Below are positions 1 through 57,018 of a stretch of 64,000 nucleotides of DNA, one piece after another; the stretch's first letter is position 1; every line of letters starts with the position of its first letter. Origin of the DNA: Selaginella tamariscina (taxonomy: Eukaryota; Streptophyta; Lycopodiopsida; Selaginellales; Selaginellaceae); contig PUQB01000244.1 of the NCBI GenBank assembly GCA_003024785.1, positions 186,001 to 250,000 of the forward strand, in the 5' to 3' direction. Position numbers and translations under genes: made by a program. A model generated the notes under the pieces. It searched no databases, was not told the origin of the DNA, and was given only the letters and a program-made list of their open reading frames with translations.

Positions 1-95
1 TGGTAATCAGTTTTTAAAGAAAATAAAAATATTACTCGTATACATTGCGTATGACGTACGATTATTGAAACTGCATTAGAATATACTGCAAGTAT

Positions 96-1259: not shown

Positions 1260-1331
1260 GTATAGACAAACTCATCCATCTCTCTCTCTCTCTCTCTCTC
1301 TAATAAACACACGCACAGCAATAACTCACAA

Positions 1332-1605: not shown

Positions 1606-1639
1606 AGAAAAATAAAATACTCAAGTGCATTTCTATGCA

Positions 1640-2568: not shown

Positions 2569-2580
2569 GGTACGTATTCG

Positions 2581-2627
2581 TTTTGGACCATTTCTCGATT
2601 TGTGCGTGTCATCCTTGCGCAGGGGCC

Positions 2628-2659
<32 letters not shown>

Positions 2660-2679
2660 TCAGGTGTCTCCGAAGGGAC
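2581..2679 (-). pseudogene. U6 snRNA retro-pseudogene
   Basis: Read on the minus strand from 2679, the sequence matches plant U6 spliceosomal RNA almost end to end: GTCCCTTCGG start, GATAAAATTGGAACGATACA, AGAAGATTAGCATGGCCCC, GCGCAAGGATGACACGC and AAATCGAGAAATGGTCCAA. It differs from the usual plant 5' stem (GGAGACACCTG instead of GGGGACATCCG). The U-rich Pol III terminator is absent. An 18-bp direct repeat, GGTACGTATTCGTTTTGG, flanks it at 2569-2586 and 2680-2697, like a target-site duplication. I see no upstream sequence element of the usual plant U6 promoter. I infer a LINE-mobilised retro-pseudogene rather than an expressed gene. Confidence 0.85.
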
Positions 2680-2758
2680 GGTACGTATTCGTTTTGGTAG
2701 GTGTATGTTGACATTAAGAAGTATATAGACTTCAAAATTTCACAATTTCTCCTCAATC

Positions 2759-4415: not shown

Positions 4416-4472
<57 letters not shown>

Positions 4473-5192
4473 GCAATAACTTGTTCTTGTGTAGGCAAAC
4501 TTTACCTTATCCTGGAGTACATGCCTCAGGGAAGCTTGTTCGACCATCTCCATAAGCCCCAGCATACACCCTTGAGCTGGAGAGACCGTGTTAGAATAGC
4601 AAAAGACATAGCGCATGGACTTGCATACCTTCACCACGGTGCAAACCCTCCTATCGTCCATAGAGATGTGAAACCTGCCAACGTTCTTCTAGATGAGGAC
4701 TTGTCAGCAAAACTTGCGGACTTCGGTGTCTCGAGGGTGGGCCGGTTGGCTGCAGATGGTGCAAAGCTGGAGACTACAAGAACACATGACATGCATGGAA
4801 CTTTTGCGTATCTTGACCTACAAGCGTTTCAAACTACAGGTGCATTTGTGTCTGGGAAGACAGACGTGTATAGTTTTGGTATTACACTCCTCGAAATGAT
4901 ATCTGGTAAGAAACCTGGACTCGATGAGATTGATATCATAGGATGGGCAAAGAGTATGGAGTCTTTGAAGAATATTGCTGATCCTGCTATGGAAGGCATG
5001 TACGACGTGCATCAACTGAACACTCTCTATGATGTTGCTATGCTTTGTGTCGGTGACTACGAGACAAGGCCAGCTATCTCAAAGGTTTGTGATTTCATTA
5101 AAGACTTACGGACTGAAGAATCTATATATCAAGATACAAGTTCTTCTGTTGATAACGCCCTATCTAGAGTTTCCATTTCTCCTCGTGATTGA
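2759..5192 (+). CDS. Receptor-like kinase with R-lectin-like ectodomain, copy 2
   Basis: A membrane receptor kinase with four inferred exons: 2759-3206, 3357-3725, 3827-4409 and 4495-5192. The start ATG at 2759 precedes a signal peptide (LLFIIKSMCYA). The ectodomain has two QxW-like motifs (NQRW, SQYW), suggesting an R-type beta-trefoil lectin fold, then a GLENGDFS...SPW block reminiscent of DUF642/galactose-binding modules. A transmembrane span follows (WLISGVTIVSLVAVELVV). The kinase shows GKGGFGTVFL, YAVKVF, VHRDVKPANVLL, ADFGVSR and GTFAYLD, so it looks catalytically complete. Splicing out 4410-4494, a (CT)n-rich intron, restores SLDGGKLYLILEYMPQG. In exon 1 the frame changes between about 3040 and 3090, so a frameshift separates the two QxW motifs. 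The gene may therefore be damaged, or the assembly may have an indel. It is a tandem duplicate of the gene at 96. Confidence 0.8.
4422..4467. repeat. (CT)n microsatellite inside kinase intron
   Basis: An uninterrupted CT run fills most of the 85-nt intron 4410-4494. The same intron in copy 1 has a shorter run (about 1281-1302). The tract extends the polypyrimidine region ahead of the acceptor TTGTGTAG. Confidence 0.9.
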
Positions 5193-5344
5193 CACACAAT
5201 ATACTTCATTTTGAAGGGTGGTACAAAGACGTTTATATATATATAGGTGGTAAATCACACACACACACTTGTATACAATGTCATCAACTCAACGATTTAT
5301 TAACTTCAAAATGTTCATATAACAATCTCTCTCTCGTAACTTGT

Positions 5345-5557
5345 TTAAACCATTATCCTATTCAAAGCTTCAGGCTCAGTAAACCAATCAGGCACAATAT
5401 ACTTGATGATGGACCTTAAGCTGCTAAACGTGCTCCTAATGGTACTTTCAGCAACACCAGTAACCTTTGATATCTCGTCAACACTGGGCCCATTACACAA
5501 GAGCGACATTATATAGATGGCCACTGCTGCTATGCAAGTTGTAACTAAAATGGGCAT
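5345..5557 (-). pseudogene. TFIIB-like C-terminal fragment (3' part)
   Basis: The minus-strand frame encodes IAAVAIYIMSLLCNGPS, then ISKVTGVAESTIRSTFSSL and IIKYIVPDWF. This matches the second cyclin repeat and C-terminus of plant transcription factor IIB, whose usual form is roughly AAAVIYIITQL...GVAEGTIRNSYKDL...IPxW. It stops 13 residues later, about where TFIIB ends. Its 5' edge at 5557-5532 is one arm of a 26-bp inverted repeat. The preceding part of the same cyclin fold lies at 20341-20112 on the same strand. I read the two as one gene split by a 14.6-kb insertion. The atypical sequence suggests a divergent TFIIB/Brf-like paralogue. Confidence 0.65.
5532..5557 (+). repeat. Left terminal inverted repeat of nested element 1
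   Basis: The 26-bp segment starting ATGCAAGTTGTAACTAAAAT and ending GGGCAT is matched at 24 of 26 positions by the reverse complement of 20087-20112. The two arms lie exactly where the two TFIIB pieces break off. Similarity fades beyond the 26 bp. I could not find a clean target-site duplication; only a shared TGCA is obvious. Confidence 0.65.
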
Positions 5558-5589
5558 GGCTATAGTCCCATTTCCTAATAATTACAATT

Positions 5590-6035
5590 TTAGCTATTTA
5601 ATTAGCATTTTCTAATATTAAAGGAATATTCTTTAGAATATATGTTTGAAAAGAGAATATTCTTTAGAATATTCTATTTTGTATTCTACCCTTTAATAAA
5701 TTATAGCATTCATTGAACAAAAATTAATAACATTATAAAAGTAGAATGTATTAAATTATATAATATATTGCCTAATATAACAATTAAGGAAGAGCATAAG
5801 AGGTACATTATATAAATATTGATGTTGTTATTAAAATATTAATATTTAAATATAACATTATTAATTAAAAATTTGTAGTAGTAATAATATATATATAAAA
5901 TCCTATAATAATATAGTCAATCTTCCATATCATTTTTTAAATTTATATAGTTAAGTATACAATTTGGTACTATTATTAAAGAGTTTATAATAATTATGAA
6001 TATTAAATATATGATATTTTATAATTTTGTAATTG
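5590..6035. other. AT-rich non-coding stretch with GAATATTC motifs
   Basis: Very AT-rich DNA with repeated GAATATTC-type short palindromes (for example near 5630-5690). No gene is seen. It lies between the left terminal repeat and the 3' end of the transposase-like gene. Confidence 0.5.
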
Positions 6036-6037
6036 CT

Positions 6038-9000
6038 TTAAGCTTCAGAAAACATACATTCCCTTGCAGTTTTGTTAATCGTGACTTTATCAACGCTTCT
6101 TGACATCCACCCATATCGAATGGATTTAACATTTATAAAACATGCTGGGTCTTTTTGATTGGGAGACCATGTTTTCTCTAGGCATCCATTATATCTTTCG
6201 CTCTCCTTCTCGTGTCGCCTTTTTTGTGGTTTGAACCATGCAACCTTAACAATACTATTTTTTGTGATTACTTCAGGTGTGTCGATAATTTGACCCATCC
6301 AAATAGGCTGATTATATGACGCATCTGGAGTAATGAGAACCATCATTAGTTTTTGAAGATCCTTGCAGCAATCAAAGTATGCTTTAGGTTTTTGGTTCCT
6401 TTGTCCAACAAAGTGTGGGGTTTGCACTTCCACATCACTACTGGCTTCTATGTCGTCTGTGCTCAGTGATGTCATTTCAATCTCCTCTCGCCACCTTGTT
6501 TTAGGCCAAAAAGGGTGTTGCAATTCTGTACTTGTGACAGTAGGCCCTTCCAACTCTCGAACAACAGTCTCCCAATAGTTGACCACATGCTTATATAGTT
6601 CTGAGTAACCAGTTGCCTTATCAGAATTCTTTGGCATCGATTTTTGAACCCATGCCACATATTTTTTGATGCCATCAATAATAACCTCTTGTTCCTTGAG
6701 CTGGGCACTCAATGGAATAGGGTCTGGTTGTCCTTCTGGGAGAAGTGGCTTTCCATCCTCTCCACTTTTGAAGAGCATTAAGCCCTCTTTCGGTAACCAC
6801 TCCTGCTCTGATGGCCGTAACTTGTACTGCATAATAGGTATACCATCTCGTATGGAGAAAAAGAATTGTAGCGGCACAAGGTGACCAACTAAAGAATCAC
6901 TCCCTTCTTTTATATACTCCTTGAGAAATTTTTTGAAGTCTGGCACCTCAGTCACAAGCAAAGCACAACTTTTTTTGGAGATGCAATTTTCAAAAAGATT
7001 CATCATATGCGGTAAGGTAAGTGCACTTGTCCTTTTTGTAGAGTTGGAGACCTTGCTGAAGAACGCATCAATATCTTTCATGAGTGTGACCAACCATAAG
7101 GAAACTGAGCGTGATTGTTTCAAACACACCTTTGGCAACAAGCATTGACAAGTATGCTAGCACATATCTAGAAAATAAAAGTAAGTATGAGCTTGAGAAA
7201 CCCTTAAGTAAAATGATTTACCTATTTTTGTTCTCGCCTGCACAATTATCCATCTGTAAAAGCAAATGACGAGGAAGCTTATTTGATGTTGAGGACACAT
7301 GTACACTATTTGAGCTAGATCCCTCCACTGAACCTGAACTCTCAACAGGGCCATCTGTTTTTTGTGCAGGTTGCTGACAATGCCTCTCATATTCCCAAGT
7401 AGCCTCAAGTGCAGATGTGTTCATGAGAGCATTATGTAAAGGTTGAAGGTGTTGTTTCTTCACTTTGAGATCACTGATAGGACTTGTCTGTGAGTGGGCT
7501 TCAAGGTTTCTGAAACACATGGCTAACGACCCAATAGTGAAATTGGAGTCGCTAGACCAATGTGGAAGTGAAAAGTGTCCATATGACTCACAACCGTGTC
7601 CATGTGTTAGCACACCTGTCAATGAAATCGGAAGTTTCATGACATTTCCAAGGCACTTTGGTGTTGCAAAGAGCTTTGGAATGCTGGTCTTTGAATGATC
7701 CATCTTGTCATGGATCAAGCACAGGTACTCTGATGGGCGTGACACAGAAAGCATGCGGTGTGCATAGTACTGAGACCGGCAAGTTTGTTGTGCAATCATG
7801 TGGGCCTCCATCTTCCTTTGAATGGTAGTGATCTCCACCAAGGTTTTTGCACAAGCCTCTGCAGCCTTCAATGATGTACAAGTGTCACACTTAGAAAAGC
7901 TAGAGTGTTTTGCAATCTCCACATCCTTAAAATGAGTATTCCATATGTTGTTGAAGGTACCAGTGCAGATTGCTTGGAGCCCCATCAAACTGAGGCACTT
8001 GTTCACATGTTCACACAGTTTCAATTGAGTGTAGATTGAAGGTAAAACCTTGAGATTTTCCCTGACCCCTGCATTTGTGGTTCGGCATTTGTGAGGCATC
8101 CTGTCTGCATTTGCTTCCACAAAAGCCTTGAGTATCTCTATGGCTGCCATGATGTGAGAGCGGGTTTTGACCAAGCCAGTGTTCCCATGAACTGAGGTTC
8201 GCGCTCCATCTAGCCACTCATCCCTCCGACGGTAGAACGTGGTCTTTGGGATCCCGTATATACTGTACCAAGCTTTGAAGCAGATGGCCACCTTATTAAA
8301 TACCATGGATGTACTCTGATAACCTGTGTCCGAGGCCATTCCATCAATACACCCAGTTAGTGCAGCATATACAAACTCATGCCTTTGCTTTTGGGTGAGC
8401 ATACGAAAGACATGTCTACATTGGGTAATTTCATTCCGGTCTGCCATCTGACAACACTTCTTCTTGCAACAGTCAATCGTGGAAATGCTCGTAACACTTT
8501 CGGAAGATGTAGGATCCATCTTTACCCTCTTGCTGAAACTTGCAGGGGAAGATCTACAACCCATGAATCGCCTTTTTCTTACAATAGGACCAATGCAAGG
8601 AACCTCTTCAAATATGAGTTGTTCTTCCGGGTTGTTATTATTGAAATCCAACCCAGAATATGTTGAACCATCTTGCCGTCTTAATTCAGATGTTCGCCAC
8701 CTCACGAGGGATCCAGGATACAATGTGCCATTAGGTGAAACCTCTGTCACAACTACACCCACGAAGTCGGACCCTAGTTTCTCTTCTGACACTGCTTCCA
8801 TTGGATTTATAGCTGTGATGATGCCTCTTCCGACTTCAATCTCACGAAGAAAGAGAATCACCTCATCCATTACAGCAGGCAAGCCATCATCTGGTAAACT
8901 CGTGCTACTATTTGTTTGTGACTCTGCATATTCTGTGTCAGCCTTGACTTCATCCAAATTCCACAATACAGGAGAACCCTCCTCAAATTCCATTCCCAGA

Positions 9001-9158
9001 ACCTCAACATACTTGTAAATGGTGTTCACCCATACGTACACACAAGATCCTTGGGCAATATTGTGACATGATGCATTATTATCTCGAACTTCCACAGTTC
9101 CAGTGCCAACTATCTCGTTGTTCCGAAGAAGACATACTTTATCTCCAGTATTAAACAT
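6038..9158 (-). CDS. Transposase-like protein (DUF7869-type), two exons
   Basis: Two exons (9158-7222 and 7167-6038) joined across a 54-nt GT-AG intron give about 1020 residues. The junction restores LQMDNCAGENKNRYVLAYL followed by VGHTHEDIDAFFSKVS. This acidic signature, D...N...HED, is typical of a family annotated as DUF7869 (name from memory), thought to have a DDE/RNase H-like fold. The N-terminus (GDKVCLLRNNEIVGTGTVEV...VLWNLDEV) resembles the small module often found ahead of plant transposases (DUF8039-like). The C-terminus has an IWMGQIIDTPE...VAWFKP block. ATG at 9158 is the first Met of the frame. A splice-acceptor-like TTTATGTGCAG just upstream (ending 9165) means a further 5' exon is possible. 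No internal stops occur, so the gene may be intact. It runs divergently from the methyltransferase gene further right. Confidence 0.7.
7168..7221 (-). other. 54-nt intron of the transposase-like gene
   Basis: Donor GTAAATC follows AAAAATAG, and acceptor TTTTATTTTCTAG precedes ATATGTGCTAGC. Removing it joins the two exons in frame within the conserved KNRYVLAYL segment. Confidence 0.85.
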
Positions 9159-9311
9159 ATTGTCCTGCACATAAATAATTGTATTATTTATGATATCTGT
9201 TTATGCAATATTTCTAAGAAATCTGAATTACGGTTACTTAATAATATGCATATGCAATAATACATAATTATGTTTAGAGATAATATCTCATGTTTGATTA
9301 ATACAACTGAT

Positions 9312-10041
9312 GGGCGGGATTAATCCCGCCCACGAATCCCTCCGACGAGGAACGGTCGGCGGGATTAATCCCGCCGCCGACTCAACCCCTTCGGAGAGAG
9401 TCGGCGGGATTAATCCCGCCTTGGACTCCCTCCGACAAGGAAGAGCCGGCGGGATTAATCCCGCCGCCTCTTCCTCCTCGGGGGAGTCCGGCGGGATTAA
9501 TCCCGCCGACTCTCTCCGACGAGGAAGGGAGTCCGGCGGGATTAATCCCGCCGACTCATCCTCGCCGGAGAGAGTCGGCGGGATAATCCCGCCGGCCCCC
9601 CGAGGAGGAAGAGGCGGCGGGATTAATCCCGCCGGCTCTTCCTTGTCGGAGGGAGTCCAAGGCGGGATTAATCCCGCCCACAATTCTTACGACGGGGAAT
9701 GGGTGGCGGGATTAAACCCGCACATAACTCTCTCCAAAACTATGATTTCAAAGAGATCTCGGGATAAATCCTGTCCCCAAATCTTTAAAACAGGGAAGTG
9801 GTGGCGAGATTAATCCCGCCACCCCTTCCCTGCCTCCTAAAATGGTTGGCGGGATTAATCCCGCCGACAACTCTTTCTAATAAATTCTGGTAACTCTTCA
9901 TCAGTTGAGAAGGTTATCGACGGGATTAATCCCGCCACTCTTTTTCAGTGGCGGAGAAGCATTGCCCGGGAGATGGTGGCGGGATTAATCCCGCCACCTC
10001 TTCGAAGAGGCCAAAAAGAAATGGCCGGATTAATCCCGCCG
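9312..10041. repeat. Palindrome array A (GGCGGGATTAATCCCGCC units)
   Basis: About 15 copies of an 18-bp perfect or near-perfect palindrome. Cores begin at 9313, 9358, 9403, 9448, 9490, 9535, 9577, 9616 and 9661, then decay from 9705 to 10040. Spacing is 45, 45, 45, 42, 45, 42, 39 and 45 bp. The spacers are related to each other and are themselves weak inverted repeats (GACTC...CCGACGAGG...GAGTC). Because core and spacing are symmetric and in multiples of three, both strands stay open as 15-residue peptide repeats (GGINPADSLRRGRES-like on plus, AGLIPPDSLPRRRES-like on minus). I do not think either is a gene. The array looks like a minisatellite built on a self-complementary core. Confidence 0.95.
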
Positions 10042-13489: not shown

Positions 13490-14965
13490 CCCTCGAGCGG
13501 CGGGATTAATCCCGCCGCTATAGGTTTATAGCCTCGGCGGCGGATTAATCCCGCCGCTATATGGTTGGGGCCATGGCGGGATTCAACTTGGCCATACGAC
13601 AACCGAAGAGCGGCGGGATTCATCCGCCGCCCATAACCTGCGTGAGGGGCCTCGGCGGCGGGATTAATCCCGCCGCTCACCCATGCCCTGCGCGGAATGC
13701 GGCGGGATTTATCTCGCCGGCAATGGCCTGTGTGAAGGTTCTAATGGGCAGGATTAATCCCGCCGGATTTCGCGCAGGGCATTTACAGGGGATGGGCGGC
13801 GGGATTAATCCCGCCGCCCAGGGAATTCACGCAGGACATGAACGGCGGGATTAATCCGGCCCACGCTTGCCCTTCGCGGAGGGCGGCGGGATTAATCCCG
13901 CCGCTCAGGCACTTCCGCAAGATATAAGCGGCGGGATTAATCCCGCCCCCACCCATCCCTGTTCAAAATGCCGCAGCCAATATATATGTGTGAGCTCATG
14001 ATTTATGAGAGGGCGGCGGGATTAGTCTCTTCGAACCTTCATTACCCGGTGGCGAGATTAATCCCGCCACCCTTCTTTTTTTCCTCCATTGGTATGTTGA
14101 ATCAATCCCGACTAACTCTGTCTGAGACGGAGAAGGTTTACAAAATACTAATGGAGGGAACTGAGAAGGGTGGTGGGATTAATTTCACCATCCCTTACAT
14201 GGTGTGCGGGATTAATCCTGCCGCGTACGCATGCCCTGCGCGGAATCGGGCGGGATTTATCCCGCCGCCATTAGCTTGCATGAAGGGCCTAGGCGGCGGG
14301 ATTAATCCCGCAAGATTTTGCACAGGGCATTGCCGTTCGGCGGAATTAATCCCGCCGACTAAGGCCCAAGTGAAGGGCATGGGAGGCGGGATTAATCCCG
14401 CCGGACGCCAATTGCCTGCGCGAAATCGGGCGGGATTTATCCCGCCGCCATTGGCCTGCCTGAAGTGCCTAGGCGGCGGGATTAATCCCGCCCGATTTCG
14501 CGCAGGGAATTGGCGTCCGGCGGGATTAATCCCGATGCCTAGGGACCGAGTGAAGCCCTGGGCGGCGGGATTAATCCCGCCAAGTCTTCAATGCCTGTTG
14601 GAGAAATGAATCTCGCCACCCTTCCCTTTTTCCTCCATTGGTGAGTTGGACCAATCCCAAACGTTTCTGTCTCAGACGTAGAAGGTTTACAACATACCAA
14701 TGGAGGGGACTGGGAAGGGTGGCGAGATTCATTTAACCATCCCTTACATGGTGGGCGAGATTAATCCCGCCTCCTTTCTGGAGTCACTGAAGGGGTGTGA
14801 GAAATAAATCCTGCCCAGTTCTCTCTGAGACCGAGAAGGGTGGCAAGATTAATTCCGCACTCCCGTTCAAGGCCTCCAGAAAGGTGGCGAGATTAATCCC
14901 GCCCACTCTTTCAGGAGGCATTGAAGGGGTGGCGAGATTAATTTTCATGTGAATATATATGTGTA
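13490..14965. repeat. Palindrome array B (GGCGGGATTAATCCCGCC units)
   Basis: About 30 perfect to degenerate copies of the same 18-bp palindrome, again near 45-bp spacing; cores begin near 14247, 14293, 14339, 14384, 14428, 14474, 14519 and 14562. There is a higher order: 14228-14400 and 14407-14578 are two roughly 175-180-bp units of four palindromes each. Blocks at 14065-14210 and 14608-14760, sharing CCTCCATTGGT and GAAGGTTTACAA, repeat at about 540 bp. Two spacers are mutual inverted repeats: 14399-14434 pairs with 14484-14520. Later copies often carry GGCGAGATTAATCCCGCC. Confidence 0.95.
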
Positions 14966-15238: not shown

Positions 15239-18200
15239 GAAGGACGATTTGATCAAACAAGGAGATCGAGTCATTAGTATGGAGTCGTTGTCAAATTCTG
15301 GGTAAGAATTAAAATAAAATCTGTTATACTCGGATACTTGACTAATCTTTTTGTATTCAGATTGTGGAATTGAGTGACATTAAAGACAAGAGCAGGAGAA
15401 GAGATGGGCAGGGGGATTCTGGAATCAACTTGGCCATATTTTAAGATAAATGGGAAGCGCATTGGAGCAACCATGGTTGCTGTCAAATTAACCTCTGTCA
15501 CATCTCATGGACAAGCAAAACAATGGAAAGTAGATTCGCTAGTCAAGCACCCGAAAGCAGGCTGCGAACCCAGATTGGACGATGCTCGACAGATATGCCT
15601 TGTTCCATCCAATGTCACGTTCTCGGATCCAGAGGTCGTCAGTTACAACATTAATCTCGGGTGGTTTTGTCGACTTGTGGATAATGACGTTCACGTGTTC
15701 ACTAATGATGTTGACCTTGGAGTTCTTCTTCAACTCAACGAAAGCCCATCTATGGAGGGGATCCATCTGGATGTCTACTTCGAAGATCTTCAGACTCATC
15801 GAGTAGGTGTATTGTCAGGAGATATTGCTTCACAATACAGAAAATCAGCAAGTGGAGCAATCTTCCCTCTTCACATTGAAGAAGAACACAGCGACATCAT
15901 AAGGAGATTGAGAGGTGGCTCGGTCTCAGGTTCTCTACAGATCACGTTCAATTTGCTTAGGAAGCTTCGGGAGCTGGAAGAGTGTGCCGAGAACACTAGA
16001 ACAGCTGCAGTCGGGGATCACACATGTTGATTCGGATCGCAAAAGAAAATCATCAATCGTTTTGTCAGCTGCACCTGTGGCATCTCATGCTGCAATAAGT
16101 CACAAGGAAATGATGTTGGATGATAAGATTTATCCTTGTAGGGTTAAATATTGCAGCGTCAACCCAAACTTCAATTACAGGCCACTCAACCAGGAACGTG
16201 TAGCTGAGCTCATGGAGAAGATGAAGGACGACAATTCTTATACCGTTCCACATAATGCTGTTTTGTGTCCATACTATGAAAGAAGGAAGGGTGCTGACAA
16301 AGTCTGGATCACAACACCAGAACAACTCATGAAGATTCAGACGGAGAATAAAAGATCTATCAAGTACTACATCATTAGTGGCCAGCACACAATAACGGCA
16401 GCCCAACGACTTCTCGATGAACACAACAAAGGAACGATGGCAACAAAACTTTCCGAGCATACCCGTGAGAAGCTGACAAAAAGATCGGCGTTTTTAGCTA
16501 AGCCGAATCTCACAATCGAGCAGTACCATAAGTTATCGGCGGAATGGGACGCTGCCGACACCAACCACTACAACAGCAAAATATGGGAGAAGTTTAAACA
16601 CACGCGAGCCGTGTGGGAATCTCTTCAGCGACCACAAAGAGCTACCGCAGGGAATACACAATCTGCGGAATACCGGGTAAGCAAATTGTTTGGGCGGGAT
16701 TTATCTCGCCGGTATATTAATCTGTCTTTTTCCTCAGAGAGTTGAAGAAATTGCAGCAGTTGATTTTGCCCAGGTGGGCGGGAAGGAAACATCATTTCTG
16801 ATGATGTTGATTTCTTGCCCCGAAGATAGGATCTTTGCCAAATGGTTGGGGATTATGGAATCCTTTTCAAAAGGAACACTGAAGAAGAAGCAGACAAGTG
16901 AAGGGGAGCCCTCAGAAAAGTCTGCAAAGAAACCCAGTAAGACGCCGAAGGCTAAGTCTGTTCAATCTACAAAGGATGTAGACAACGATTTCAAGCTCAC
17001 ATGGTTGAAGCCTTTAAATGGAACAACGATGGAGGAGATGGAAGTCTTGGCTGATTTGGTGATCGATGGCAAACTACAAATTAATAACAGCAGCCCAACC
17101 TCTCCTTTTTCATCTCAAGGCAATGGAGTTGAAGACGGTCAGGCATTTCAAGGAGTGGTTGGGAATACACTGCCACAAACTGGGTTGGACCTCGACTTCA
17201 ACATATGAAGAGGTAGCAAATATTTGCATGTGACGAACGATGATATGCTTGTCGAATGGGTGAACCAATCGGAAGATCTAGGCAAAATCTATTGCACGCC
17301 AACGCCAAAAAGGAGAACATTGGGATGACGCCTTCTCTTATGGCAGTCCTTCAGCAGCGGAGAACCGAATTGAACCTTATAAAGGAGGATGCTACGAATC
17401 ACGACAAGCCCTACAGATGTTTGTTGTTAGATTCGGAGACTTTATGGGGTAACATCACTGCTTGTAGGAAACCGTTTCAATTGTTCGTGATGGATCGGCG
17501 GGTGTCAAAAAATCTTTCGACAGATAGGGCACTAGAGGATCTGGTGGAGAAACTTAGCCGTGCAAGCATATACATAGAAGGTATTTATTATTGAATTCAT
17601 GCTTGCGCTCTTCACTGATACCTACTTTTTCAGGTATTTATTTCTTGATTCTTGCTCATGTCACCGATACTTTTGCCTTCGCCTTCGCCAAGAAGAATAG
17701 ACATCGTTGGACAGGATTTTATATGAACGATGCTAATCCCAAGTGCATTGATACGTTGTTCACTTGGTTGTTAGGAATGCGCCAAACAATTTCAAGCTTC
17801 CAAATGACTGGCCAGGCATCTGTTTGCACTCCAACGGCCCTGAACCTCCATCCGATACACCGATAGGTATGAGTGACGTATTCGGCAATGTACGTTATCC
17901 AAACATTACAAGTCAAGCGGCACGGAGCATCGTCAACTTGATCAGGGGTCCTCACAGTGATGCGTGGGTTTTTGACTACTGCACTAGGGGGTCCGTCTTG
18001 AAGGAGTGTTACCTTCGGCATACATGTGTGTTTGCCGTTGAGAAGGATAAGACCATGGTTGAGGACCTGAACAAGTGGATAGATTGGGTCTCAACTGAGT
18101 ACCCCAACGATCCATAAAGGCGTATTTGAGAAAGTTCCCTCCAGATAAGTGCGATAGCTCTGAAGGTGAATCTGGTTCAATCTCGGAGTCTGAGAACGAA

Positions 18201-30779: not shown

Positions 30780-32400
30780 TCTTGCGAGGTTTACTATTCA
30801 TGAATAGTAAAAATCATGGTCTAAGCTAAAAAAGTTAATTCATGGACTCATATCCTTCATTCATGAGTCCTGTTAGAGAGATCATAGATGTTGTGTTACC
30901 TACTGTGTTGCCTACCTTCTGTGATTGGTGATTGGTGAGTGGTTCTAGACTCTTCAAAAGTTTATAATAAGTTACTACATCTGGTATTTTAAAAAGTTCT
31001 CCCATGATCATCTCACAGGTTGCTTGGAACTCTATCACTCTAGCTTTGATTGTAGATGACAAGGAAATGCTAGTGGGATATTAATGTTGACCATGATGAA
31101 GAGTCTAGTCTTTGTCACATATAGGTATGATGTAATAAGACGTGACCTCGCATCCCTTCATAATATTTGACTCATCTTCACAGTGCATGCATGTCATGCC
31201 TTCAACTATCTCAAAGAATGTTTTCTTCACCTTCTACACGAAGTCTTTGAAATGATATTTGTTCGAGGTCGAAAAAAGAATAAGAAGGGTTCATGCACTT
31301 CATATGTTTAACATAGTTACTCCAATTGACTCGAGTGGAACTAAGATGTGCCTATTTTCTTTCCATCCCCAAGTACTTGTTATTGCTATCCTTGTGAGGC
31401 AGCAACTCGAAAATGACATCTCTATTATAATTCTCAAACACTTTAGAAATGTGTTTAATTGCAGAAGAAGTCTTCATGAAATTCTTCCCTATCCTACATT
31501 GTCTATCTTTTGAAGGATCACAAGCACTGAATCACTTTTTTTGGAACTCTTTATTTTGAAAATTGGACCTTTTACTAGCTACAATGTATAAAAATTGAAC
31601 TCGATAGTTTCATCCCATTCAGTTAAAATCTTTGTTTCTAGTCATGAGGATCTAAGAAAATATAGCATTTGTTGTATACGAAAATCTTCCCACACTGGAA
31701 TGAAGAATGACGCATGTAATTCTTGAGCAAACACAAAAGAATTACCATTTTCTTCTACCAAAAATTTCTTGTCATATCTCACTCTTGCTATTTAGTTTCA
31801 CTTAAAAAAAAATGAAGATAAAGTTTAAATAATTGTAAATATTAACTTCTTAATTTGAGAAGTCAATTAAACTACAAAAGTCAATTAATGCTTATTACGA
31901 TTGTTCCAAACTGAACATGCATTAAATGTATGCGAGCTAAATACATTGAAATCTATTTACTTAACTATCAACCTTAATTTTAAATCCTAATCAATCATGG
32001 TTATAGATTTGAACACCGTTAAATTCAAATCATGTCTATCCAATAAAGAACCCTAAATATAATTTTATGCCCACATGGCACAATAGTTGGGAGCTTTCAT
32101 CGACATCTATATCCACATTCCTTGATTACATTCTCACATAAGATTGCTTAGTTTTACTTTTTTTTCTTCACTTACTTTCTTCTATTTTGCTTGCCTTTCC
32201 TCTTATATTCTTTTACGCCATATCCGCTACATAGAATTTCAAATGGGTACTCATAGCTTAATCCCCTTTTTATCTCTTCTCAATTTCCTTGTTAAAACAC
32301 CAACTAATAGTATAGGCAAGTTCTCCCCCAATCAATATAATGTATCCCCTTTTTGGTTCCCCATGCCATTAGCACCTAGCAAGAGTTTCTGATCTCTTTG
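30780..32400. other. Non-coding, no recognisable gene
   Basis: Short frames at 31259-31513 and 32144-32392 show no family motif. The region follows the retroelement integrase and may be its decayed 3' part or LTR, but I could not identify LTR ends. Confidence 0.35.
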
Positions 32401-48019: not shown

Positions 48020-48037
48020 CTGCTATGTATTATTGAT
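48020..48037. repeat. 18-bp flanking duplication (left) of the MULE element
   Basis: CTGCTATGTATTATTGAT is present perfectly at 48020-48037 and at 57001-57018, immediately outside the two terminal inverted repeats. Mutator-type elements usually make 8-11-bp duplications, so 18 bp is long. Confidence 0.9.
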
Positions 48038-48155
48038 GGGTTTGACATTTCCTCGAGCGCAGTTTGCCGAGCGTACGGATTTCCGTCATACCGGAATATT
48101 CCATTCCGTACAGAATATTCGTTTTCATATAAAGAATATTCTGGTGCGGCGGGCG
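48038..48155 (+). repeat. Left terminal inverted repeat of the MULE element
   Basis: About 115 bp, imperfectly paired with the right end. It contains several GAATATTC palindromes and ends with GGTGCGGCGGGCGG. Confidence 0.8.
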
Positions 48156-48345
48156 GGCAATCATGGCGGCACGGTAATGTGTCAAAGTTTCACAAATTTG
48201 GGGGTTAATCTGACATATATATTTATATATTTATATTTATATTTATGTTTTTATTTTTTTAATATTTATATTTATAACTATAATTATATTTTTATATAAA
48301 TACCGCATCAAACTAAATAAAAATTACAATAAAAACATAACTCAA

Positions 48346-51300
48346 TCATGAAGACTCGTTTCCACCAGCCAGTGCCTCGTCGTTAATGAATGCATTGTTA
48401 CGGTGTCGTGAACGTTTCTCCTGTCTGTCGTAAACTTCGAACTCTTCAACCATTTTCTTTGCCATCTGATTAGCGTAGTCTGGTAGAACAATACTGAAAA
48501 CATATTAAAGTTTAAAACCAAAGAAATGATAAAACAAATCTCACTCATCATCTGATGACTCGTATGATCTCTCTTCTGCTGACTCATCTGATGACTCGTC
48601 GTTGTGCTCCACGGACTTCTCCGTAACAACATCCTTGTCGTTTCGAGAAGGCGGATCCTGGTCTCCATCGTTGTCGCTAGCCAAAGGCAAATCCTGTGCT
48701 TCTGTTTCCATGGCCCTCTTCCACTCATCAAAAGGAGTAATCATGGAAACAACTTGATCATCCCCACCACCTTCAGCTGCTGTAACACTTGGAATGACCT
48801 TCCTGAAGACATCTCTGGCTGCTAAAACCAGATCCTTGTTGATGTCGATTCCATAACCATGTCTCCCTGTGTGAAAAGCTGCAAGAATACTAGCACCGGT
48901 TCCCACTGTTAGATCCACAACAGTTCCACCAGGCTTTGTGAGCTTCTCCACTAGCATCGCAAAAACAATTTCGGGCCAATTGAAATCCTGAAAGTTACAA
49001 TATTAGAACATGAGAAATAACAAACAACATTATACCATGGGAGCTGGAAATCTTCTGGCTCATCAAAAAGAAGAGTGTAGCGAGTGTCCAAGATCTCCTT
49101 GTTCTTGGCAACCTTAGAGTAGGGGGAACCAAAAATACACATGGCAATGATGCTTTCCTGAAAAAATAAACATTAAAAAATGACATTCTCAAAAAGAAGA
49201 ATTACCTTTCTAGAGAAACGGTATCCCCATGACTTTGTCGTGTGCACATAACTCATCTGCAGAAACTTTAGCTTGCAAGTTTCTGCAGTGTTCTTCAAAG
49301 CTAGAACATCATCCGGTAGCACAAACACTACCACATGGCCAGCTCTGTCTAATATCCCGAAAGCAAGGTTCACCAAGTTCTTCAGCAAAGCATCCGAGAA
49401 CTTCGTGTATTGATCCACCATCCCGCCTGCCTCAGCAACGCATCCGGTAGGCGGGTCGATGACAACGAGATCAACAGCTCCCTGGATGCATTTTGGTGGA
49501 GGCTTCGCACCAAACACATGAATAGTCCAACTTGACTTGTGACTCACGATCCAATCCTCAAGCTCCTTCAATCCTGACGGAAAAGGCCTTCCGGCTTTGA
49601 AGTACTGGACTGCAAGGTTCTCTGAATCTGCATGAATGATTTCCCAGCTTCCATTTCCCTTCTCAGGCATCACCATCCTCAACATATCATCTTCTTCCAA
49701 TCCAGCCGAGATGAAGGATGGGGCTGAAGAAGAAGCTTGTCCCTTGCTGACCTTGCTCGCCGATCTAGCATACCTGATATCCATCTTCACATGGAGCTTC
49801 CTTGCAGCATTGTCGTTCTTCCATAATAGCTCTCGCCGATCATCCTTGTGTATCTTATAGCTGGCCATCTCCCATTCGGGACAGTCACCAGGAAGGAAAT
49901 CCAGCCAGAAAGGACAGTGTTCCACTTCGTAATCACTGATATCACGTAACAACCGGCTCCACATGCTAGAATCCTTGGTAACATCCATCCACTCTTTGAA
50001 ATCTTCAGGGAGTGCATCGTTTTCCATTTTAAAAACCTGTAAAAATAGATAAAAATCTGTAAAGAAACAAAAAAAAAACTTGCCTGAATGCCATTCTTTT
50101 TGCAGATTTTTCCAGCTCAAATAGTCGAGGAGGTGGAATTGTCGCACCGAACTCCTTGTTCTCGAGCATGTTCTGGTACATATCCAACTTAATTTCATTG
50201 TGCATCTTCATATACCATGTCATGAACTCCTCTACATGCTCGACCAAAAGCTCTTTAGCTGCCTCCGCGACCTGGCACGATAAAACGAATAAAAATGAAA
50301 AATATAAATATTAAATTACCTGGAACCAGTAAGTAAAGATGTGCAAAAACTTGATGAAGTCCTTGTCAGGCCAGCCGGTGACACCTTCCTTCTTGTCTTT
50401 CTCCGTCATGTTCACCAGCTTCTCAAGAACGCCACGTTCTTGAATGTGCACAAGCTTTCCAAGGATATCAACCTTGACGTTGGAAGGAAGCTGGGACTTC
50501 GCGAGCATTTGAAGCTTCTCCAGAGTTATTTGCTTCGTTGATGGTTTGATAGTGATATCTGTGATCGCCTTGAACCAATCTTCACCGACCGCCGGATCAG
50601 CAATGGTGAGGAATTTGTTCATCCGAACTGTGAATGTCTTGTAAACGCTGGAGAGGATCTGAGATTCTGTCTGGTTTGGTTTTCTGTTCGCAAGTTTTGT
50701 AGCGATTTGTCGCTTCAGTTGATTCTGCAAAAGAAACCGAAAATCAAAAAACAGTCAAAAGAAGAAGAAAAGATTACCTCCCAAAAAATCTTCACCAATG
50801 TCGTCTTTGGATACTCGTACCAAACGTCTTCTTTTCTGTTCGATCTCCACACTTCCACAGCTTTTCTATCTTCCTCCGGCATCCCGCGAAGAACATGATC
50901 GGTAGAAAGATCTGCAGACTTCACACAACAATTCCGTAAGAACTGCAAGGTGTGAATGATTGTTGTAGGAACCACACGAGCAGTTGCTCTGCAAAACAAA
51001 ACAACATTTATTTAGTATTTAAATAATGAAACAAACAAGTCACTTACTCATTCAACCGATTGCAAGCAGCGATTAGTCTCTTCTCCTCTTGCACTGTGGA
51101 TGCTATGAGTGTTGCACGTACACGCAAAGTCCATTTCAAACCTGGCTCTTCAGCAAGCAAAGTGTTCAAAGCAACCCGACGATGATTCCCATCCCACACC
51201 AGAAACTTTGCATCTTTCAGAAATCGATACCATGCAGAAAATGCTGGCTTATGCAAATCCGCTTCAAACTCTCTATCGACCTGTGCTTCTGACTCATTCC

Positions 51301-51874
51301 AACTTCGGCGTTCGTCTGCACTCAGCTGTGGTCCGAAAGATAAGGTGAACACTGACGTCTCCTGGTAAAATCCTTCAGCTCTAATCCATCCAACAAGGTC
51401 TTTCACGCCGTCCTTAGTGACATTCCTCAAACGTTGGTGTGGGAGCAACCTGTGAACCGGGATACGCGGAGGCTCACCAAGCTCAACTGGAACGTAGTGG
51501 TCTCGTCCTTGTAGCGATGTGTCAATATCTGTGTCATACCGAATAACAAGATCCCGAAGAAGCTTGGATGGAGCCTCAAGTGTCAGCCGCTCCGGAATTG
51601 CATATGATTCGGCAACATCCTCAGGAGCATCCAGTTTCCTCTTCTTATTGAACATTTTACTACCAAGATCAATATCCGGTACTTCCTCTGCATTACCGTG
51701 TTCTGCAGAGCTTCCTGCAATCTCCCTATTTCTAGGCATCCATTCACTCACCACAGTATGTTCATCAATGACTTGCGAACTATCCACAGGTTCATTGTTC
51801 GTCGGCATCATCTCTTTGTGTTGCAGTTGTGCTTGGCGCCTCGGCCTCCTTTTGCCACGAGGTTTTGGAGCCAT
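48346..51874 (-). CDS. ParB-like/beta-class DNA amino-methyltransferase fusion
   Basis: Eight inferred exons: 51874-51048, 50988-50778, 50724-50320, 50271-50080, 50036-49206, 49157-about 49028, 48987-about 48540 and about 48494-48346. Together they give roughly 1060 residues. Start context: ATGGCTCCAAAACC. A basic N-terminus (PRGKRRPRRQ) could localise it to the nucleus. A ParB-like domain spans residues 140-270 (PVHRLLPHQRLRNVTKDGVK; FLVWDGNHRRVALNTLLAEE). A helical middle follows. The methyltransferase domain has motif IV as VDLVVIDPPTG, before motif I, VVDLTVGTGASILAAFHTGR. The IV-then-I order marks the beta class, which in bacteria makes N6-methyladenine or N4-methylcytosine. The catalytic tetrad is DPPT instead of (D/N/S)PP(Y/F/W), so activity is uncertain. 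The tail is acidic and serine-rich. It is divergent from the transposase within one element. Confidence 0.75.
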
Positions 51875-51879
51875 ATCTG

Positions 51880-53410
51880 CAAGAGCTTCTTGGACGATAT
51901 TTCTTGAAGTGTCAAAGTCTTGTATTTATCTCGTAGTCTCTTACTCTGCCTTTGTCTCATTCTGCAATTACAACAACTGATAAGTGTGTGTGTGTGAGTT
52001 GTTTTAATTTATGGACACACATTTACTATATATGTATACCTATCAATATATATAGACACACACGCACACACACACATATTTATACGTGTAATGTTGTTTG
52101 TGTGTGTGCTCACTATATAATGTTCCTTGTGTATGTGTGTAATGTTGATTATGTGTGTGTGTGTGTGCAATGTTGTTTGTGTTTTGTGATGTGTCTGTGT
52201 GAGAGAATATGGGTATATTCATATCTCTTCACATGTATATACAGACGAAAAAGCATCATCTCATATATACAAGTCTTAAATTCATATACTTATACATACA
52301 TACATACATAATATATATATATATATATATATATAAGTCTTTTTAAGTATGTATTTAAATATATATATTTATATATACACACACACATGTATACAAGTCT
52401 AATGTTGTATAATCATACGTGTGTAAAATGTTATTTATGTGTGTGCGCAAAAACACACACACACACACACACACACACGGATTTCCTGCCCGAATTGGGC
52501 AGGAATCCTGCCCAGATGGTGCGGCCGCCGCACCATCCAGGCGGCAGATTTCCTGCCCGAATTGGCAGGGTGTGTGTGTGTGTGTGTGTGTGTTTGCCGA
52601 AATCGGCAATAACTCATGCGTCGGAGGTGTGTGTGTGTGCACACGCGCGTGCGTTTGTGAATACAAAGAAATCCTACTGAATTTGCACATACATTCACAG
52701 AAATTACTATACACATATATAAGATTTTACCTGTAGCCATGTCGCCGTGACGCTCACACTAGCCTCTTGTCGCCGCAAAAAAAAGAACAAAAGTGCCCTC
52801 TCTCAACAATGGAGAATGGAGAAGAAGAATGGGTAGTCCTGAACCTTTACCCTAAAATCTAACACTTAACCCTTTGACCCTTAACTATAAACTGTGTTTA
52901 ATTAAACCATACAACAGTATATATAATACTTACGATAAATAACATACTATATAAAAGGATACAAATACAAACACATATTTAAGTAAAAATTTGTATGTTA
53001 AAAAAACATATTATTATATAATTAAATAAATATTCGTGTAAAAATATGTATTTATAATTGACAATTGGTAGCGGAGCAAGTATTAATCAACATCTACATT
53101 TGATAAAATACTGGATCAAATAACTATATAATTATAATAAATAAATTAACAGAATATAAACAAGTCATAAATAAATATGTCAGATGAATGTAGATTAGAC
53201 ACACATTTATTTAAAAGACAATAAAGATTGCTCTATCTCTACGTGAAGTGCTATACTATATTAGCATCTAAGATCTATACGTTTCCTTGAATTAAATATT
53301 CGCCCACGTTGAGTCATGATTGTGAATTTTTGAAATGGTAATATCCGATATTTACCAAAAGATGATTAAGTAATGCTGTTGTTTTTCTGTCACGTTTGTG
53401 GTAACTGCTT
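51880..53410. other. Divergent intergenic region of the MULE element
   Basis: This separates the two gene starts and must hold both promoters. It contains TG/CA and TA simple repeats (52060-52170, 52304-52335) and the hairpin at 52456-52602. AT-rich DNA without genes follows to 53410. I see no convincing TATA box assignments among the many TATATA runs. Confidence 0.6.
52456..52602. repeat. GC-rich hairpin between (AC)n and (TG)n tracts
   Basis: Left to right: (AC)n, TTTCCTGCCCGAATTGGGCA, then the centre GATGGTGCGG-CCG-CCGCACCATC, then TTCCTGCCCGAATTGGCAGG and (TG)n. The two halves are complementary, including the AC/TG tracts, so the whole region can fold as one long stem. The central GCGGCCGCCGCA resembles the inner edge of the right terminal repeat (56800-56812). 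Confidence 0.85.
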
Positions 53411-53415
53411 GCAAA

Positions 53416-56400
53416 ATGGCCAGGATTGTTTACGGCAATTTGGATCACGATGTTCCTGTGATAGATGGTGTTGGAATCATTCTTACTAATCAGATTAGAA
53501 CGTTCTTTGGCATTTTTGATTGGCAAAGTGTTCGTCTTTTTAAACTTCTTCATGGGCAATCTGCTTTACAGATCGAAATAAACGAGGACCAAGATGCTGG
53601 AGGGAAGGATAATCCAGGATATGTTTTGTTACCGGATGAAGGACCATTGTTTAAGCTTGTCGTTGCTTCTGACTCTGAATACTCAACGTTGAAGAACCTT
53701 TTCACTTCTAATACCTGCAAAAAGGGAAGAATTCTTATCGAGGGTTCCACGATCATTCATACAAATGAATTGCCTATTGCGTATGATGGGGATGTCATTT
53801 TTGAGCTCCCTCCTTCCGAATACAAATACAAAGGAATGAATCGGAAAGAGGATGGACATACCTGGACAGCAGGAACGACCAGCAACTGGAATTTTCAAGC
53901 GAGGGTGTCCAGGAGCAAATGTGTTGGGAGCCTTTGCTGTATCAACCCGGACTGCCCTGCTTCTAAGGCAGGATTTCCGAACTGCACTAAATGGAAAGGA
54001 TGTATTGTTTCCCCACCTTCAATCGACAAACTGGCAAAAGGATTGACATGTTTTTTCTGTAAAGAAAATCCATTGTGCCTTGAAGTTTGTCATGCTGTGG
54101 CGTTTTGCGTTTTCCCAGACGACATAACCAAGACTAGATTGTTTATCCACCAGGGAAAACATTCACATCCAGTGGGTGATGGTGTTTCTGCATCGAACAA
54201 AGAAGAAATGCATATGGCGGTCCAGAATGCAACAGAAAGAACTCCCAGAGCTAGTCCAAGAGTCATCGAAATGGCAGCATGTAAAGATGCTATCTTTGGT
54301 TTTCTATTAGATAATTCTGAGCCTGGAAGTTGGGATAAGCTCATGGATCATTTGCAACCATTATCAAACAATCGAAGGTACAATTAGAGTTTTACTTTGT
54401 GCTGAGCATTCTTTGATAATACCTTTGATGCAGAGTTCGTCAATGGGTAGCGTCCGCAAAGAGAACTGCTGCTGAAATGCCAGAGAATATTGATGGATTA
54501 TTGGAGCTGAAACGAAGGTTGTCTATCCCATTCATCCACGTGATTCACTATCCTGGGATGAATTTCCGTGGTTCAGACGACCAGGCATTAGTTTTTAAGA
54601 TGACGGTTTCAGGGCCAGGTTCTGGAATCGATTATGTAAGGATGTGCCAACCTCCTCTTGGCCCTTTGCAGAAGAGTTGGGTTCTACTTGATCACACACA
54701 CCGTGTTGTTGATAAGTGGATCACTCTGGCATTGCATGTTTACGACCCAAAGTAAGATGTTATCTTTTTGTTGTTTGCTTAACTCTTTGATTATTTTATA
54801 GTGTGCGCCGATTATCCACCATTGCTTATGGTGACATGAAGAGACAAACGGCTGGAGCTGTGGAGAAGTTTTTTTCGTGCTATGTTGGATGTCTGTTCCG
54901 AGAAGGGAATCTACAATGTGCAGTTCGCTGGGTTTATGTCCGATGAAGCAGGAGCGATCTGGCAAGCAATTAGGAATGTGTTCTTTAATGGCCAAGAAAT
55001 TCCTGGACGTGAACGGAGCTGTATCTTTCACTATGAACAAGCCATACAACGTGTGACAAGGAAGTGGGTCCCTCTTGAACATCAACAACAACATCTTCAA
55101 CTTTTGAGATCATGGCCAACAGCCACATCAACAACTGATCGTGAAGAAATTGAAAATAATCTTTTCCGCTTTTGGAATGAAAATGTGAAGGATGTTGGAG
55201 TTATGCAGACGTGGTTTTCATGGTGGGAAAGACAGAAGAATCATATTTCAAATGTTGTTCTTGAAAGCATGCCGGAGAATGCTGCAAGGGTTGTGCCCAT
55301 GACAAACCAGTCGGAGTCTGTTCACGGAAGATGGAGGAGGGCTAGAGATTCAAAATACATTTCATTGTACCAAGCTACAATCCACGACCTGACTGAATCA
55401 GTGCGACAATGTGCTCTTGTGAAGGCTTTTAGAGATGGAAGGTATAGTGGTTCCGGGCCGACTTCAGAGGAGCTCTCAGCAAGGTTCGAGAGAAGAATGT
55501 CAAATGCTAACTCAACAACACCTACAGCAAAGGTTATCATCGACTTAGTTGAAGATGTTGCTCCATCAAGCATGCAGGATACTGCTTTTGTGGCTGCCAC
55601 GAATGTTGAACATCGCACTGTGCAAAGAAATATGGGGTCAGAGGCTGAACGATCCCACCGACCGGACATCTTCTATAGTGAACAGGTTATTCCAACACAG
55701 TGTAGACGGAAGCGACGATTGGATTTTCAACTTGCAGAAGAACATGAAGAATATGTTCTGGTTGAAGAACAAGATGTTACACCTGGACAATGGGCGATTA
55801 GAAGATGTGGTGAAAGAAGTTCTGTGAAATGTCTGGCAGGCTTTCCCTCTTCAGGAGGTCAGTGGAGTGCTTGTGACAAAAAGATCAGTCCTAGTGGTAA
55901 TCGAGTGGCTGCTCCTTGTTTTTTTGGAAGGATCAGATACAATGACAAAGAAACTGGTGAAGAATGCTTTCGCTCACAAATGATGTATTTTTGTCCAACA
56001 AACATGCTTTGCAACAGACATCCAAGACCAACTATTGTTTCTCCGCCAGCTTCTACCTCGGTTTGGAAAGTTCAAGTGGGCACGAAGCTGATAGCAATGG
56101 AGATCAATGATCTGGCAAGATCAGGTTTTATGCTAGCTGGGCTTCCTTCAGCTCATGCAGGAGTGCCAGGTTTTTCAACACCTCATGTTCCTTCAGTTCC
56201 TGTTGGAGTCACTGGATTTTCAACACCCCCTGCACAATTTCGTGGACCTCCTGTTCCTGCAAGTGGTCGTGCAACAAGAACACCTTTAGGGATGTCTAAG
56301 AAACAACAGGTAAGTTTTGAAGCATGTTTGACGTTGGGAGCATATGTCGCAGAAGTTGACGTGGTTGATCCTCCAACATGCATTCGCTTCAGAGTATGTG

Positions 56401-56636
56401 ACAACGACCATACATCTGCTTGGGTTGTCATTTGTAGCGCACCATCTTGTTCATGCTCGGAGTTCTGCAATGGTCGTCAGTGGGTGCCTTGCAAACATAT
56501 GTATTTTGTTTACAAGCGTGTACTGGGAGCTGATCCTCGAGTTGTCAAGCATTTGCAACGTCGTACACTTGCACCCCGTGAACTAAGTTCTTTATTGATG
56601 CTACCAAGGAACCTCCATCCTCCACCATCTATTTAG
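53416..56636 (+). CDS. MULE-type transposase with SWIM zinc finger (one frameshift)
   Basis: Three exons: 53416-54377, 54434-54751 and 54802-56636, about 1037 residues. Start AAAATGGCC at 53416 is the first good ATG. The N-terminal part has a cysteine cluster (SKCVGSLCCINPDCPASKAG...CTKWKGC...CFFCKENPLC...H..H) of the WRKY-GCM1/FLYWCH-like kind found ahead of MULE transposases. The MULE catalytic core follows: SWVLLDHTHRVVDKW (first Asp), QFAGFMSDEAGAIWQAI (second Asp) and CIFHYEQAIQRV. The C-terminal SWIM finger is CSCSEFCNGRQWVPCKHMYF. In exon 3 a run of seven T (54869-54875) puts VEKFF and RAMLDVCSEKG in different frames; six T would keep one frame. This is a one-base mutation or a homopolymer error. 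Both introns join conserved sequence cleanly. Confidence 0.85.
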
Positions 56637-56799
56637 TGTGTTTGGTTTGTTTTCAAACAGCTTCGGTTTTATATTTGTTATTTCAAACTTATAATTTTCA
56701 ATATAAATTTTAATGGTAATTTTATGTTTAGCATATTTTTAAGTAATTTAACATATATTTTCTTTAAATACAACAAAAATATACTACCATATTTTGTAT

Positions 56800-57000
56800 G
56801 CGGCCGCCGCACTAGAATATTCTAGAATATTCTTGAAAATTTTGGAAGGTCCAATTGTGTGTACACTTGGCAGTACGAAAAATTTCCGTAGAATATTCGA
56901 GGATATCTAGACGGAAATCGTACGGAACAACGGAATATTCAAGAATATTCGGAAATCTAGGTCAAGCTCGTTGACCTGCGCTCGAATTTCGCCGTGCCCC
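56800..57000 (-). repeat. Right terminal inverted repeat of the MULE element
   Basis: About 200 bp paired imperfectly with 48038-48155, longer by an insertion of about 80 bp. It ends CTGCGCTCGAATTTCGCC then GTGCCCC and has many GAATATTC-like motifs. Confidence 0.8.
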
Positions 57001-57018
57001 CTGCTATGTATTATTGAT
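57001..57018. repeat. 18-bp flanking duplication (right) of the MULE element
   Basis: CTGCTATGTATTATTGAT, identical to 48020-48037. The bases on either side of the two copies do not match, which fixes the length at 18. Confidence 0.9.

Follow-up and report, generated by a model that had tools for sequence, protein, structure and literature searches.

A Mutator-like transposon of Selaginella tamariscina with a second gene for a predicted ParB-like/amino-methyltransferase fusion protein

The 64,000-nucleotide stretch of Selaginella tamariscina DNA analyzed here (the window) contains an element with a transposase gene and a divergent gene for a putative ParB-like/amino-methyltransferase fusion protein, raising the question of whether a plant DNA transposon carries its own DNA-modifying enzyme and to what end. 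The two genes, the ends, the target-site duplications, the high copy number and the existence of copies with both reading frames intact are directly observed, and there is evidence that the methyltransferase gene is an integral and maintained component of the element. The fuller reading, namely that the element is an autonomous and recently active DNA transposon of the Mutator-like kind and that the fusion protein serves it as an anti-silencing or self-marking factor, is given roughly even chances. The element and its ends are as follows.

48038-57000, no strand assigned: the element as a whole (8963 bp at this locus), with boundaries set by target duplications at many loci
48020-48037, plus strand: left copy of the 18-bp target-site duplication
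57001-57018, plus strand: right copy of the 18-bp target-site duplication
48053-48062, plus strand: inverted-repeat core TCGAGCGCAG, 15 bp from the left end
56976-56985, minus strand: inverted-repeat core, 15 bp from the right end

Ends, genes and copies of the element

The 10-bp core TCGAGCGCAG recurs in inverted orientation at the opposite end of the element, 15 bp inside each end, and the flanking 18-bp duplication CTGCTATGTATTATTGAT has no mismatch; the initial annotation had described both correctly. Of the 17 copies retrieved from the genome, 14 have target duplications: the window copy has its 18 bp and the 13 others have 6-10 bp, with a single mismatch in four of them. No end duplication was found in the remaining three (L012, L023, L024). 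At 20 further loci, where the scan tolerated a displacement of the ends by as much as 2 bp, a duplication of 6-11 bp is present in 11 cases and none was found in nine, including C550, C608, C391 and C937, where both ends are present. Pooled, 25 of the 37 sampled copies are duplicated, with the L015/L017 pair having one common site. The usual length of 8-10 bp, with some duplications of 6 bp, fits the 8-11 bp that characterize a Mutator-like element (MULE). The 18-bp duplication of the window copy is exceptional compared with the 6-11 bp of the other duplicated copies.

The transposase is encoded by three exons.

53416-54377, plus strand: transposase exon 1 (Cys/His cluster)
54434-54751, plus strand: transposase exon 2 (first catalytic D)
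54802-56636, plus strand: transposase exon 3 (second D, C/H, E and SWIM-type motif), with one indel in the window copy

These exons give a protein of 1037 aa in nine of the 17 copies, identical in eight, while the window transposase stops after 474 aa owing to one indel in exon 3 (by eye, one extra T). Catalytic residues assigned by motif are D407, D474 and E598, with C500 and H503 between the second D and the E, and a C-terminal CxC...CxH pattern was recognized by eye, without profile support, at C976, C978, C990 and H992. A DDE triad with such a C/H pair and a CxC...CxH tail are marks of Mutator-like transposases. Conversely, no transposase, MULE or SWIM model matched the protein in a Pfam scan up to an E-value of 10, and likewise no MULE or SWIM model matched its relatives P0002 and P0003. 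These two unnamed proteins align with 48% and 43% of the query at 36% and 33% identity. The Cys/His cluster is largely conserved in them, as are the C/H pair and the first two D residues, and both end before the E. Thus, the proposal of a MULE transposase with zinc-cluster and SWIM domains stands as far as the catalytic, C/H and CxC...CxH motifs and the target-site duplications carry it and lacks the support of Pfam, so that the element is described as Mutator-like rather than as a confirmed member of the group. A decayed relative of the transposase lies elsewhere in the window (30925-31498, minus strand; tblastn 6e-11), and the same search gave no neighboring match to the methyltransferase.

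The methyltransferase gene runs on the opposite strand and, as the initial annotation held, has eight exons.

51048-51874, minus strand: methyltransferase exon 1 (ParB-like domain, DGNHRR)
50778-50988, minus strand: methyltransferase exon 2
50320-50724, minus strand: methyltransferase exon 3
50084-50271, minus strand: methyltransferase exon 4 (GC donor)
49206-50036, minus strand: methyltransferase exon 5 (motif IV, DPPT), with a 1-nt loss at 50022 in the window copy
49036-49157, minus strand: methyltransferase exon 6
48545-48987, minus strand: methyltransferase exon 7 (motif I, DLTVGTGA), with a 7-nt net loss at 48964-48967 in the window copy
48346-48493, minus strand: methyltransferase exon 8, including the stop codon

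The seven introns are short (47-59 nt) and follow the GT-AG rule except for one GC-AG, and in copy L009 the exons measure 830, 211, 405, 188, 832, 122, 450 and 154 nt. When this exon model was applied to 12 of the 17 copies (the other five have a changed or lost splice-site anchor), an identical and intact protein of 1063 aa was obtained from L009, L012, L015 and L016, and an early stop from the other eight; both reading frames are intact in L009, L015 and L016. Under the same model, the window gene stops after 626 aa. The 1-nt loss recurs in three other copies; the 7-nt net loss is private to the window copy, as are small indels at 51831, 51853 and 48422. A reading of the window copy's own splice junctions as genuine was rejected, since the intact copies do not show the conflicts of frame that it entails between exons 4 and 5 and between exons 6 and 7, which therefore reflect damage or assembly error.

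The copies were sought in a genome of 300.7 Mb in 1391 contigs, in which the window is C554:186001-250000. When the complete element was used as a DNA query, 17 of 266 first-look candidates were scored and gave 17 main places, all 97-100% identical. Of these, 15 are near full length (covering at least 1-8896 of the query), one is missing the initial 700 bp and one stops at 7300. A 35-mer of the 5' end matched 87 genome places with up to three mismatches (44 exact, 18 with one, 17 with two and 8 with three), compared with none for the reversed control. The methyltransferase gene was found behind 35 of these termini by the whole-element search and a protein search of the genome, and behind 39 of 40 further termini the 301 bp retrieved at the expected place align with the element in the region of methyltransferase exon 5, although at C662 the match spans only 137 bp of the stretch. 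The gene is therefore in place at 74 of the 75 termini tested, including 43 of the 44 exact ones; the remaining 12 termini all have two or three mismatches. The sole exception, C481:239506, has an exact 5' terminus and no methyltransferase at the expected place, and is perhaps a truncated or internally deleted copy.

A 38-mer of the transposase core matched 115 places (control, none), 100 of which were listed. A listed core lies 5.9-7.2 kb downstream, in the same orientation, of 62 of the 87 termini (38 of the 44 exact and 24 of the 43 others). Conversely, 25 termini have no listed core, although several of them carry the methyltransferase (C324, C797:141187 and C827, for example), and for 38 of the listed cores no 5' terminus was listed. 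The unpaired cases may be due to truncated copies, to contig ends, to cores that were not listed or to altered ends. Moreover, the protein search located 31 methyltransferase places absent from the whole-element search. When the ends of 20 of these (the 20 further loci scanned for duplications above) were retrieved, both element ends were found at the predicted distance in 15 and, within the stretch retrieved, one end only in five. Of two more copies read whole, C760:517000-527300 has the duplication, and at C1114 the 3'-end probe gave no good match.

The protein search, in which 43 of 2350 first-look candidates were scored and which thus sets a lower bound, gave at least 102 matches that are 78-100% identical, except for one stretch of 55% at C1045. 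This stretch lies in a copy of the same element family, and four of the less similar places, C1045 included, are 93-99.5% identical in DNA, so that no separate host gene is seen; within the candidates scored, no homologue was found outside the element. The claim that the element carries its own methyltransferase gene is strongly supported by these counts: copies with the terminal repeat lack the gene in one tested case of 75, and homologues confined to places outside elements, which would have suggested a chance capture, were not seen in this lower-bound search.

A one-off capture of the gene is ruled out by its presence at 74 of the 75 termini. It is also improbable that the gene is a passenger acquired in the style of a Pack-MULE and spread by a burst of copies. 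Most of the retrieved copies are young enough for such hitch-hiking from a single founder; however, the gene is also present in copies that are merely 91-94% identical over the tested stretch (C558, C662, C611 and C136:154342), its shared variants lean towards synonymous changes (see below), no donor gene is seen elsewhere in the genome within the bound given above, and a like arrangement is described for a transposon of an unrelated superfamily (PMC12477816).

The youth of the copies, and the quality of their assembly, can be read from their differences. Outside the central repeat, 13 of the 15 full-length copies differ pairwise by 0-11 substitutions, L014 and L022 by 14-32, and L022 also by 42-52 indels. 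Small indels outnumber substitutions in most copy pairs, as they do in a noisy long-read assembly, and L015 and L017 have both flanks in common with 0 substitutions and 7 indels between them, so that they are apparently one insertion assembled twice; their difference gauges assembly indel error or allelic difference. L022 and L023 have the right flank in common, and the flank of C803 is also found at the sister copy C760:517000-527300. It follows that there are more copies than independent insertions, and that assembly error may account for some of the apparent frameshifts, including those in the window copy. The indel excess and the L015/L017 pair would also favor an artefact of assembly or contamination as the source of the element itself. 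The probability of such an artefact is next to nil given the duplicated target sites of 25 among the 37 copies sampled, the seven short introns and the decayed transposase relative in the same window; it is ruled out for the element as such, whereas some single-copy frameshifts may be artefactual.

The fusion protein and its predicted activity

The C-terminal half of the fusion protein matches PF01555 (N6_N4_Mtase) above its cut-off (E 3.5e-8; 34.1 bits against 26.7), most strongly in the motif I part (868-921), and the protein matches phrog_67 with an E-value of 7.5e-11. Motif IV, at aa 739, precedes motif I, at aa 890, which is the beta order. The profile and the motif order thus agree with the initial annotation's assignment to the beta-class amino-methyltransferases; the aromatic residue usual in motif IV is absent. 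The N-terminal part holds a DGNHRR motif at aa 229, which speaks for the proposed ParB-like domain.

Selection on the gene was assessed in 39 fragments of exon 5, with changes counted against L009 and transitions weighted twofold. Variants present in at least two copies comprise 9 nonsynonymous and 12 synonymous changes, compared with an expected nonsynonymous share of 74.6% (P 0.0019), and private variants comprise 37 nonsynonymous (three of them stops) and 17 synonymous changes (P 0.19). The pattern is suggestive, and only that, of a propagating lineage under constraint in which single copies drift.

Several results weigh against the reading of a maintained and active self-marking enzyme. 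First, no intact methyltransferase was obtained from 13 of the 17 copies, and 18 of the 39 exon-5 fragments have at least one frame-changing gap; such gaps and broken copies reflect either decay or assembly error. Second, when CpG transitions are left aside, the shared exon-5 variants fall to 5 nonsynonymous and 6 synonymous (P 0.03), and the signal comes from part of exon 5, has L009 instead of an ancestral sequence as its reference, and counts each shared variant as an independent event, although not all are independent and some may be recurrent. For the full gene in 21 copies, the distinct changes are 32 nonsynonymous, 20 synonymous and 10 intronic, with 2, 5 and 1, respectively, in at least two copies, and the transposase changes common to copies are 3 nonsynonymous and 1 synonymous; these whole-gene and transposase counts are too few to judge. 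Third, the ParB likeness is below threshold: the DndB profile scores 16.3 bits against a cut-off of 29.1 (E 0.0054). DndB has been placed in the ParB superfamily (PMC10853773), and the ParB label for the N-terminal part is likely but unproven, with the motif in its favor and the profile falling short. Fourth, two word-limited searches of public proteins found no methyltransferase homologue, the first scoring 8000 candidates with a limit of E <= 0.001 and the second 1070 with a limit of E <= 1. No homologue came from phage records or viral contigs either, and a search of solved structures gave weak matches only.

The main doubt concerns catalysis, because motif IV reads DPPT rather than DPPY and is aligned with the DPPY of MboIIA in a match that is itself weak (E 0.057). 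The aromatic residue at this position normally contacts the flipped base. The fusion protein is thus predicted to have a methyltransferase fold, and it might be integral to the element and yet inactive as a methyltransferase, binding the element through its ParB-like domain, or binding S-adenosylmethionine, and aiding transposition or expression without methylating. This alternative is unlikely, though it deserves serious weight: it would accommodate the missing aromatic residue, the concentration of the Pfam match in the motif I part, and the presence of the gene in 74 of the 75 tested copies, which makes some function likely. On the other hand, motif IV retains its Asp and both Pro residues, motif I retains its GTG, and an odd residue in motif IV is no proof of inactivity.

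Candidate binding sites and a proposed role

If the fusion protein does mark the element, it would need sites to bind, and three regions contain candidates.

48072-48154, plus strand: left subterminal array with ACGGATTTCC, three GAATATTC palindromes and GTGCGGCGG
56798-56950, minus strand: right subterminal array with five GAATATTC palindromes and GTGCGGCGGCC
52480-52575, no strand assigned: palindromic center of the divergent intergenic region, a candidate binding site or operator

Within the element, GAATATTC is confined to the two end regions, with three occurrences in roughly the first 110 bp and five in roughly the last 190 bp. In the whole window it occurs 21 times compared with 1.9 expected, and the 13 occurrences outside the element lie in AT-rich sequence. 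The possibility that it is a motif of several element families was considered and rejected, as the other clusters in the window are AT-rich and differ, by eye, in motif order. Moreover, GTGCGGCNGCC, with at most one mismatch, is present at 48144, 52519/52523 and 56798/56802 and at no other place in the window (5 compared with 0.6 expected), its middle sites falling within the palindrome between the two divergent genes. This palindromic center has ACGGATTTCC and GTGCGGC in common with the element ends; its DNA fold score (z -9.9) is inflated by flanking CA/TG runs. One protein that binds both the ends and the shared promoter would be an attractive model for this arrangement.

In such a scheme, the fusion protein would bind the element, perhaps at GTGCGGC (both ends and the divergent promoter) and at GAATATTC (both ends), and would write N6-methyladenine or N4-methylcytosine there, and the written mark would keep the promoter and the ends usable despite host silencing by 5-methylcytosine (5mC). 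This anti-silencing or self-marking role is inferred, as are the self-modification, protection and end marking suggested in the initial annotation; it is likely enough to merit a test, the DPPT motif being the main doubt. The broader proposal is offered tentatively, at somewhat less than even chances: a plant Mutator-like transposon may write its own non-5mC mark on its ends and promoter by a ParB-guided methyltransferase, and the resulting epigenetic identity, apart from host 5mC silencing, may explain its recent burst. CpG transitions account for 20 of 75 distinct substitutions, compared with 30 CpG sites among 457, an excess that suggests that older copies carried host 5mC.

Alternatively, the enzyme may have the chromosomal DNA of the host, or rival elements, as its chief target and thereby manipulate the host. 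The KKRKLD stretch of exon 1 resembles, by eye, a nuclear signal and would suit such a role, but no test result points to host targets, and this alternative has a low probability, close to that of the passenger gene.

It is disputed whether N6-methyladenine or N4-methylcytosine plays a real part in the nuclear DNA of land plants. An element that is young, present in many copies and equipped with a candidate writer offers a clean test, as the mark, if there is one, should sit on the element. If self-marking is true, a bacterial-type mark would add a new way for transposons to escape host silencing.

Neighboring features and known systems

Elsewhere in the window, the open frames of an apparent multi-exon gene at 15374-18100 include a second ParB-like stretch (ISGQHT by eye, 15912-16742); no Pfam match was found in the two frames scanned, and the gene is possibly another transposon accessory gene. 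Two open frames at 6041-9200 (minus strand) match DUF7869 and are perhaps another transposon gene. A U6 snRNA lies at 2577-2679 (minus strand, 96.5 bits), open frames at 9298-9813 and 13941-14609 contain repeated GGINPA-type peptide units that are probably minisatellite-like repeats, and protein kinase and UDP-glycosyltransferase matches, which suit a plant genome, are also present.

Second genes beside a MULE transposase have precedents in mudrB of MuDR and VANC of VANDAL21, the latter an element-specific anti-silencing factor. The proposed role of the fusion protein resembles theirs, while its enzyme is of bacterial type; neither mudrB nor VANC is known to have a methyltransferase domain.

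Transposon-encoded DNA methyltransferases are known from other settings. According to PMC5890265, retrotransposons of dinoflagellates and charophytes encode cytosine-C5 methyltransferases that methylate CG sites de novo. The likeness lies in the presence of a DNA methyltransferase in a transposon; the difference is that the enzyme there is a host-derived C5 enzyme in retrotransposons and here a predicted beta-class amino-methyltransferase in a DNA transposon. Two further sources concern MT-A70 enzymes, in a survey of N6-methyladenine (PMC12695648), and bacterial elements (PMC5512222).

The closest counterpart is Sola1-1_Ec32 of Ectocarpus, a 21.5-kb transposon that encodes, as described in PMC12477816, a ParB-like/N4-methylcytosine-or-N6-methyladenine methyltransferase of 1104 aa on the strand opposite to the transposase. 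The same source reports ParB-methyltransferase fusions in transposons of brown, green and red algae, already proposes self-binding and self-modification, and cites Petroll et al. 2025 for the same class of transposon accessory protein. The initial annotation, which assigned these fusions chiefly to phages and bacterial mobile DNA, accordingly needs amending to include algal transposons (PMC12477816), and the kind of system is thus known. Compared by description rather than by sequence, both elements combine the same two domains (the ParB part here being sub-threshold) in a protein of similar length (1063 and 1104 aa) encoded opposite to the transposase, and they differ in that the algal element belongs to the Sola1 superfamily, is 21.5 kb long and resides in a brown alga. 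In a literature search that took in few subscription papers, PMC12477816 was the one source seen to deal with this module, and such a gene in a MULE or a land plant was not found, which is no proof of priority. What is apparently new is the MULE vehicle, the plant (perhaps lycophyte) host and the evidence for an integral, maintained gene. If the proposed self-marking is true, the algal and MULE cases would represent the repeated adoption of one bacterial-type module by unrelated transposon superfamilies.

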